DNA from: an uncultured Candidatus Poseidoniales archaeon
GTDB lineage: Archaea > Thermoplasmatota > Poseidoniia > Poseidoniales > Thalassarchaeaceae
NCBI GenBank assembly: GCA_902573115.1
Contig: CACGIM010000008.1
Location: 1-37,603 of the forward strand
Length of the DNA: 37,603 nt
Direction: 5' to 3'
The translations under genes and the position numbers were made by a program. Shown here in pieces: positions 9,510 through 11,049 of the stretch. The notes under the pieces are model-generated. The model was not told where the DNA came from and searched no databases. It saw only the letters and a list, made by a program, of their open reading frames with translations. The first letter of the stretch is position 1. The number at the start of each line of letters is the position of its first letter.

Positions 9510-9812
9510 TTGAGTCTGCGGGTCGCCCAGAACCTCATTGGTGATAGCGTGGCTGTTGAAAAGTCAAAAGTAGGACCCATCGAAGAGATGGCCCAATCGT
9601 GGCAGGATGAGATTGAGGGCAGGGTAAAGGGACTTCAGACCGGTTCCTATGCTAGAATTTTGAAGATGGCCAAGAAGCCGTCTAAGCAAGAGTTTAGGCA
9701 AACTGTTATTGTTTGTGGCATAGGAATGTTTGTTCTGGGTGCAATTGGCTTCGTAATCCTAGCTTTGATGGTGAATGTTTTCCCTCCATTTTTTGAATGG
9801 CTGACTGGGTGA
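9510..9812 (+). CDS. secE: Protein translocase SecE / Sec61-gamma subunit
   Basis: Small protein with a single C-terminal TM helix, core ILKMAKKPSKQEFRQTVIVCGIGMFVLGAIGFVIL; located between ftsZ and spt5. Start uncertain (TTG at 9510). Confidence 0.88.
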   Translation: MSLRVAQNLIGDSVAVEKSKVGPIEEMAQSWQDEIEGRVKGLQTGSYARILKMAKKPSKQEFRQTVIVCGIGMFVLGAIGFVILALMVNVFPPFFEWLTG

Positions 9813-9821
9813 GGTGTTAGC

Positions 9822-10688
9822 GTGTCAGAGGCATTCACAGTATACCTCCGAAGCGGAGAGAAGGTTCTGGTTATGCAGAGAGCTGATGAGGTAGCTGATT
9901 TTCCGGGCGCATGGGATGGAATTTACGGGGTAGGTGATCCCTCAGACTTGGATTCAGTCATGTCTCGAATTACAGAGTGCACTGGAATCCCTGTAGATAA
10001 ATTACAATATGTAAGGTCCGGAATGGCTCGAGGGCTAGCCTACGGGAACAGGTTGAGCGATGTCACCCCCCTTCTATTTGTGACTGAAGAGGCTGAGGTC
10101 TCCGCAGGGACATTATACAAGAATTCAGAATGGTTAGACCCGGGAGCTATTCAGACGAAGGACTACGCTACGCCACAATTGAGAGAGATGTACGGAGACG
10201 TCGCTTCCTACTTATACATCCTGAAGACATCGATAGGTCAGGAACAAAATGTAGCCGGAGAAATTAGAGCTCGACTTTCGGGAACTGGATCATTGAAAGA
10301 CATTCAGGACAAGATATTCGGGGTTCTGAGTCCCCATTACATGAAGGGATTCATCTTTGTTGAGGCGACCGCAATGCACCATGTGCAGAAGCTCATTGGA
10401 AGAGTTGGAGTCGGTGTTACTCCACTAAAGAATTGCAGCAAGGTACTCGATGGAGAGGCCCCTTTGGAGGATGTTTTGCCATATCTCGAGCCTAAAGCTG
10501 CTACATCTGGAATAGAGGAAGGTTGCATCGTTGAGATTTCGGGTGGAGCCTTTAGGGGTCAGGCCGCCCGAGTGACCAGAGTGGCGGAGTCCAAAGAGGA
10601 AGTCACTGTAGAGCTATTCGAAGCAGCGGTTCCTGTGGCACTAACGGTTAGAGCGGACCAAGTCAGGGTCACTCAGAGAGTTGAGTGA
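9822..10688 (+). CDS. spt5: Transcription elongation factor Spt5/NusG with an extra N-terminal Nudix-like domain
   Basis: C-terminal part has NGN (YLYILKTSIGQEQNVAGEI...MKGFIFVEA) and KOW (CIVEISGGAFRGQAARVTRV). The N-terminal ~115 aa (KVLVMQRADEVADFPGAWDGIYGVGD...SRITECTGI...EWLDPGAI) resembles a Nudix fold. Confidence 0.9.
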   Translation: MSEAFTVYLRSGEKVLVMQRADEVADFPGAWDGIYGVGDPSDLDSVMSRITECTGIPVDKLQYVRSGMARGLAYGNRLSDVTPLLFVTEEAEVSAGTLYKNSEWLDPGAIQTKDYATPQLREMYGDVASYLYILKTSIGQEQNVAGEIRARLSGTGSLKDIQDKIFGVLSPHYMKGFIFVEATAMHHVQKLIGRVGVGVTPLKNCSKVLDGEAPLEDVLPYLEPKAATSGIEEGCIVEISGGAFRGQAARVTRVAESKEEVTVELFEAAVPVALTVRADQVRVTQRVE

Positions 10689-10710: not shown

Positions 10711-11049
10711 GTGGCATCATTATCAAATAGGGAGAGCAGGTCGGCCGATTCCGCGACAAGGGGCTTGTACATGTCAGCACGCAATGAGACTCCACACAAA
10801 GTTATCCAAGAGCTGGGTAAAAAGAAGTGCAACGGGTCCTGGGAAGAGTCCACTGAGAACCTGACCATGGACCAAGTGAAGAACGTAGCAGAGTCCCAGA
10901 AAGATAGGCTGACGGGCAAGTCACTGTACGCTAGGTGCAGAGAAGTTATGGGTACTTGCGTTGCAATGAGAGTGAAAGTCGAAGGAATGGAGCCAAAAGA
11001 GGCTCTAAGCGCAATGAGCGAGGGGGCATTTAACGAGCATTTTAGTTAA
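10711..11049 (+). CDS. rpl11: Ribosomal protein L11, apparently C-terminal domain only
   Basis: LTMDQVKNVAESQKDRLTGKSLYARCREVMGTCVAMRVKVEGMEPKEALSAMSEGAFNEHF matches the archaeal L11 C-terminal domain (LTMEQVxxIA...KEVIGTCVSMGVxVEGxxPKEA). Position between spt5 and L1 fits. No N-terminal GPPLGPALGPLG motif. Confidence 0.85.
   Translation: MASLSNRESRSADSATRGLYMSARNETPHKVIQELGKKKCNGSWEESTENLTMDQVKNVAESQKDRLTGKSLYARCREVMGTCVAMRVKVEGMEPKEALSAMSEGAFNEHFS

Follow-up and report, generated by a model that had tools for sequence, protein, structure and literature searches.

A predicted, catalytically degenerate Nudix domain at the N-terminus of the elongation factor Spt5 in Poseidoniales archaea

Introduction

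Spt5/NusG is, to our knowledge, the only transcription elongation factor common to all life. Proteins of the Spt5 family bind to the clamp of RNA polymerase and raise processivity, the NGN domain being the part that binds RNA polymerase and Spt4; eukaryotic Spt5 gained extra KOW domains. Archaeal Spt5 is described in reviews as a protein of one NGN and one KOW domain, of which the former keeps it on the polymerase clamp and the latter touches partners such as FttA (PMC3382729, PMC11616081). No report of Spt5 with a Nudix domain, or with an all-beta N-terminal domain, was found in the open-access literature searched, and Nudix is absent from the text of a 2026 survey of elongation-factor domains that includes 40 archaeal proteomes (PMC13289920).

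Outside the Spt5 family, two described proteins share features with the arrangement reported here, namely NrtR and CFIm25/NUDT21. Nudix enzymes are recognised by the box consensus GX5EX7REUXEEXGU with its metal-binding glutamates, and Nudix folds serve as ligand sensors in other systems. NrtR, composed of a Nudix domain and a winged helix, is an initiation repressor sensing ADP-ribose; it resembles the Poseidoniales protein in carrying a Nudix fold on a transcription protein, but differs from it in the partner domain and in the process concerned. CFIm25/NUDT21 offers the likeness of a non-hydrolysing Nudix domain acting in gene expression (PMC3287031), but it is a separate eukaryotic protein that binds UGUA RNA, is not attached to an elongation factor and showed no special sequence relation to the domain described below.

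The window analysed here is a stretch of 37,603 nucleotides (GenBank assembly GCA_902573115.1, contig CACGIM010000008.1) from an uncultured archaeon of the order Poseidoniales, family Thalassarchaeaceae. Poseidoniales, or Marine Group II, are common surface-ocean archaea and rank among the most abundant groups of archaea there. A preliminary description of this DNA, made from the sequence alone, had pointed at an Spt5 gene with a degenerate Nudix-like extension. To this the present analysis adds the order-wide fixation of the fusion, an identifiable likely source family and the presence of a different N-terminal domain on Spt5 of other Thermoplasmatota.

Results and discussion

Identity and organisation of the spt5 gene

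The features of the locus are compiled in Table 1. Judged from its sequence matches, the encoded protein is a genuine Spt5 with about 118 additional N-terminal residues. The NCBIfam equivalog TIGR00405 matched residues 132-286 above the model cut-off (E=1.5e-31), which includes the single C-terminal KOW domain, for which the Pfam model by itself remained under its cut-off. Over the same residues phmmer aligned the protein with Spt5 of Thermococcus (9bct) and of Pyrococcus (3p8b). The gene is flanked by a SecE-like gene on one side and by the genes of uL11, L1, L10 and L12 on the other, an interval that is the usual archaeal Spt5 locus, and Spt4 (PF06093) exceeded its cut-off in each of the 14 genomes searched. 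With archaeal Spt5 it therefore shares the NGN and KOW domains, the equivalog-level match, the operon position between SecE and the stalk genes and the presence of Spt4 in the genome; it differs in the pseudo-Nudix domain placed in front of the one NGN and one KOW.

Table 1. Coordinates of the features of the spt5 locus within the window
Feature	Position	Strand	Evidence and remarks
Shine-Dalgarno-like GAGGTG	9811..9816	+	5 nt upstream of the GTG start; from sequence
Gene of Spt5 (NusG family), with pseudo-Nudix domain fused at the N-terminus	9822..10688	+	288 aa; GTG start, TGA stop; frame open in all complete orthologues
Predicted degenerate Nudix domain (pseudoenzyme), residues 1-118	9822..10175	+	Pfam matches of orthologues, AlphaFold, Foldseek, hhalign, residue table; omega about 0.06
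Collapsed Nudix box, residues 36-56, GVGDPSDLDSVMSRITECTGI	9927..9989	+	REU Glu replaced by R49, second Glu of EE by C53; at least 2 residues shorter; column table and alignments
Later catalytic Glu position, residues 98-99 (L98-Y99)	10113..10118	+	WEH Glu replaced by L/I/R/V, followed by a newly invariant Tyr
Junction REMYGDVASYL, residues 119-130	10176..10211	+	Conserved between Nudix-like domain and NGN
NGN domain, residues 131-225	10212..10496	+	PF03439 (residues 131-193), E=1.4e-9; TIGR00405
KOW domain, residues 226-288	10497..10685	+	TIGR00405 to residue 286; PF00467 weak, E=0.032; PDB matches to Pyrococcus and Thermococcus Spt5

The open reading frame and the motifs quoted from it in the preliminary description were all found as described there, and its estimate of 115-120 extra residues agrees with our figure. 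Its premise that archaeal Spt5 measures about 150 aa held only in part: the extension is real, but greater length is not exclusive to this protein, given that Spt5 open frames of 270-320 aa occur in several other families of Thermoplasmatota.

It had also been pointed out that the fusion would be in doubt if Spt5 were initiated separately near position 10200. The sole internal candidate examined, the in-frame M122, is a non-start codon in three of 50 orthologues, and all complete orthologous copies have an uninterrupted full-length frame, which makes a separately initiated Spt5 unlikely. As M122 is not conserved as a start, the full-length fused Spt5 is, from comparison of the orthologues, likely to be the product made. 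Two trivial explanations were rejected: an internal start at M122, in view of the TTA or CTC codons in the three orthologues, and a frameshift or assembly artefact, in view of the identical open frame in more than 150 independent genomes.

Fold of the N-terminal region

Both sequence comparison and structure modelling assign a Nudix fold to the N-terminal region. The Pfam search with this region of the window protein alone returned no match, while 18 of 27 orthologous N-terminal domains searched singly matched PF00293 (NUDIX; best E=2.2e-4). The AlphaFold model, computed from an alignment of 27 sequences, had the topology E-E-E-H(43-54)-E-E-E-E-H, with the Nudix helix at residues 43-54 and a C-terminal helix, and its pLDDT was 73-93 across residues 1-110. 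Over much of residues 129-212 pLDDT fell below 50, leaving the NGN and the relative placement of the domains uncertain, and for this reason no surface was placed on the polymerase. Foldseek against the PDB ranked Spt5 entries first and Nudix proteins directly after them, with probability 1.00 and TM-scores by target of up to 0.72; among these were BdRppH (3ees), Methanosarcina mazei MutT (3grn), Ap4A hydrolases and NrtR (3gz8). The Nudix-like character of the extension proposed earlier is thereby borne out by the structure prediction and fold search that had been suggested for checking it. It should be added that some relatives carry insertions of variable length just upstream of the REMYGDVASYL junction.

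Loss of catalytic residues

For the comparison of individual positions, a column table was drawn up from 26 Nudix sequences of the sister family found in other Thermoplasmatota (see below) and 19 Spt5 N-terminal domains. The first glutamate of the box, present in 26/26 sister-family sequences, is D, S, N, T or A in the Spt5 copies; the REU glutamate (25/26) is replaced by arginine, R49 in the window protein, in 18/19; the second glutamate of the EE pair (26/26) by C, A, S or V in all 19; and the glutamate of the later WEH motif (26/26) by L, I, R or V, likewise in all 19. The only catalytic acid mostly retained is the first glutamate of the EE pair, E52, in 14 of the 19 Spt5 copies, so that four of the five are gone. 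Furthermore, the Ser, His, Phe, Asp and Trp which are conserved in the sister family in the columns of window residues 35, 82, 84, 96 and 97, presumed to be substrate-binding positions, are lost or mostly lost. The core residues L16, R20, W31, G36, G55, L85 and W104 are retained, and F5, D32, G38, G71, L78, Y99 and D106 became newly invariant.

The Spt5 domain thus departs from the Nudix box and its metal-binding glutamates, and the pattern is the one expected when a fold stays and the enzyme function goes. On these grounds we consider the domain a pseudoenzyme and not a hydrolase, and predict that assays of hydrolysis would be negative. The box substitutions noted in the preliminary description for the window protein were right and apply to the whole order: RE has become x-R, the second E of EE has become C, A, S or V, and at least two residues were deleted.

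These data leave practically no room for reading the N-terminal region as a chance resemblance to Nudix, as an active hydrolase or as a protein of its own, made possible by an internal start of Spt5. The absence of a Pfam match for the window protein alone might be quoted in their favour, but chance resemblance is contradicted by the NUDIX matches of the orthologues, by the fold search and by the profile alignment given below (probability 99.2); hydrolysis by the lost catalytic acids; and a separate protein by the lack of a conserved start codon at M122.

Distribution, selection and independent additions

In a class-wide search the fusion turned up in both families of Poseidoniales, in about 157 genomes in total, among them every genome of at least 90% completeness; in at least two genomes without a detected fusion the gene is cut at a contig edge. 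Complete fusions occur alike in the Thalassarchaeaceae, to which the source genome belongs, and in the second family, with whole-protein identity between the two down to about 50%. In the phylogenetic tree all Spt5 Nudix-like domains formed one clade with a long stem (support 100/100), whereas their deep placement and the donor Nudix branch were left without resolution. In MGIII, the sister group within this class, Spt5 is plain; in place of the fusion, some MGIII genomes have an intact Nudix gene that stands alone. The simplest history accounting for these sequences is a single fusion on the Poseidoniales stem, with catalysis lost afterwards.

Within genus, omega was about 0.06 for the N-terminal domain and about 0.01 for NGN and KOW, values which are indicative only, synonymous sites being saturated at this level. 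They point to purifying selection on the N-terminal domain, which is kept and evolves faster than the NGN and KOW core.

The survey of Spt5 length and architecture across Thermoplasmatota, called for in the preliminary description, had a double outcome: the fusion is Poseidoniales-wide, and Spt5 of other families is long too, owing to an unrelated domain. The extra N-terminal part in those families comprises about 130 residues and is an all-beta sandwich in the AlphaFold model (mean pLDDT 92), without significant Pfam match; its loose fold matches include Spo0M. It was found in Thermoplasmatales, Methanomassiliicoccales-like and related families. Both kinds of protein carry an addition at the N-terminus of Spt5, but the all-beta domain is without resemblance to Nudix and represents a separate acquisition. 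N-terminal additions to Spt5 arose at least twice in Thermoplasmatota.

Relationship to a Nudix family of other Thermoplasmatota

Outside Poseidoniales, the profile of the Spt5 N-terminal domain detected a family of small Nudix proteins in roughly one in three of the Thermoplasmatota genomes sampled, and hhalign aligned the two over 117 columns with 25% identity (probability 99.2, E=2.4e-19). In the reverse search with the profile of the Nudix family, the Spt5 domain scored above ordinary Nudix proteins in most Poseidoniales genomes; the same profile also found further Nudix proteins there, many of which are Ap4A-hydrolase-like by eye. In Poseidoniales the domain profile revealed no stand-alone copy of the N-terminal domain at E<=0.001. 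The nearest relatives of the Spt5 domain are thus Nudix proteins homologous to it over residues 1-118, stand-alone or fused to the aconitase-X (AcnX) swivel domain PF01989. They have an intact catalytic box and WEH motif, are presumably active and are not attached to Spt5.

Type I IPP isomerase, suggested as a source by a weak NCBIfam match (E=0.02), was not supported: the IPP isomerase-like gene of the window genome was unmatched by the domain profile at E<=0.01, compared with values of about 1e-5 to 1e-18 for the Nudix family.

Two observations on gene context may be added. In six cases from several Thermoplasmatota the nearest Nudix family sits behind the aconitase-X swivel domain (E=3.7e-25), which is linked with the mevalonate pathway of archaea. 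In three cases from MGIII the stand-alone gene of this family lies near a uL16/L10e gene and a gene read from its open reading frame as isopentenyl phosphate kinase-like. The MGIII neighbourhood is a hint that the ancestor of the Spt5 domain may have taken part in isoprenoid metabolism.

Possible functions of the domain

Taken as a whole, the evidence is best explained by a former Nudix enzyme which was fused once to Spt5 and now acts as a docking domain at RNA polymerase, an explanation to which we give about an even chance. An active small Nudix protein would have joined the N-terminus of Spt5 in the ancestor of Poseidoniales, after the split from MGIII, and would then have dropped its catalytic and presumed substrate-binding residues while retaining the fold. 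From knowledge of the family we infer that, as in all other archaea, this Spt5 is anchored to the clamp of the polymerase by NGN and Spt4, and that KOW retains its usual partners. The pseudo-Nudix domain would add another docking surface next to the polymerase during elongation, one specific to this lineage and with a protein as the most likely partner. All 46 copies of the domain are acidic (net charge -4 to -19, median pI 4.4, against pI 6.1 for NGN and KOW), and this makes a protein a likelier partner than nucleic acid; the argument is a weak one, because the proteome is acidic anyway, with a median pI of 5.3 for the proteins of the window.

We favour docking over the nucleotide or alarmone sensing put forward in the preliminary description, whose other part, a degenerate and non-catalytic Nudix domain on Spt5, stands, while sensing found no direct support. 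A sensor that binds a nucleotide, an alarmone or other pyrophosphate without hydrolysing it, and so alters the effect of Spt5 on elongation, is a possibility that we rate as less likely than docking. The Nudix domain of NrtR turned up in the fold search; R20 and W31, which we take to be located at the pocket of Nudix enzymes or close to it, are invariant, and with the newly invariant D32, Y99 and D106 a pocket could persist and a new ligand or partner would be conceivable. The loss of four of the five metal-binding acids and the complete or near-complete loss of the Ser, His, Phe, Asp and Trp conserved in the sister family make metal-dependent pyrophosphate binding of the ancestral type improbable, however, and the disappearance of presumed substrate-binding residues together with the catalytic ones argues against the ancestral ligand having been retained.

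Docking is also to be weighed against a purely structural role, in which the domain would pack on NGN or Spt4 and stabilise Spt5 or its contact with the polymerase, no outside partner being involved. The nearly invariant REMYGDVASYL junction and the near absence of amino-acid change at residues 119-135 within genus suggest rigid packing against NGN. Nevertheless, MGIII and many other Thermoplasmatota manage without the domain, Spt4 is present for the same job, and several relatives have the variable-length insertions directly before the junction, so we find this role rather doubtful.

Far less probable in our opinion is binding of nascent RNA in the manner of CFIm25/NUDT21, by which the domain would guide 3'-end formation with the FttA ribonuclease. 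The Nudix domain of CFIm25 does bind UGUA without hydrolase activity (PMC3287031), and archaeal Spt5 bridges the polymerase and the CPSF73-like nuclease FttA (PMC11616081). At the sequence level, however, no RNA-binding feature was identified, and the acidity of all copies counts against such a role, subject to the same reservation about the acidic background proteome.

On a more speculative note, and with a rather low expectation of being right, the domain might serve as a signal input that tunes elongation across the order upon binding a metabolite or a partner from the translation side; it would then belong to a more extensive remodelling of the interface between transcription and translation on this branch, on which the neighbouring uL11 also lost its N-terminal domain.

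The order-wide pseudo-Nudix addition points to a part of the transcription apparatus, specific to this lineage, that would serve in docking or sensing. With an addition derived from a dead enzyme fixed throughout one order and a different addition in related orders, archaeal elongation factors do gain parts, and residues 1-118 offer a compact handle on what docks at the elongating polymerase in abundant archaea of the surface ocean.

The neighbouring uL11 gene

The N-terminal domain of uL11 belongs to the base of the ribosomal stalk and is close to universal. The uL11 gene located directly downstream of spt5 (10771-11049, + strand) encodes the C-terminal RNA-binding domain alone, about 92 aa in length (PF00298, E=3e-7), and in none of 15 Poseidoniales genomes, drawn from both families, did the N-terminal domain model PF03946 reach its cut-off. 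This order-wide loss is striking by itself. The same model was present in MGIII, in other Thermoplasmatota and in all 14 control genomes.
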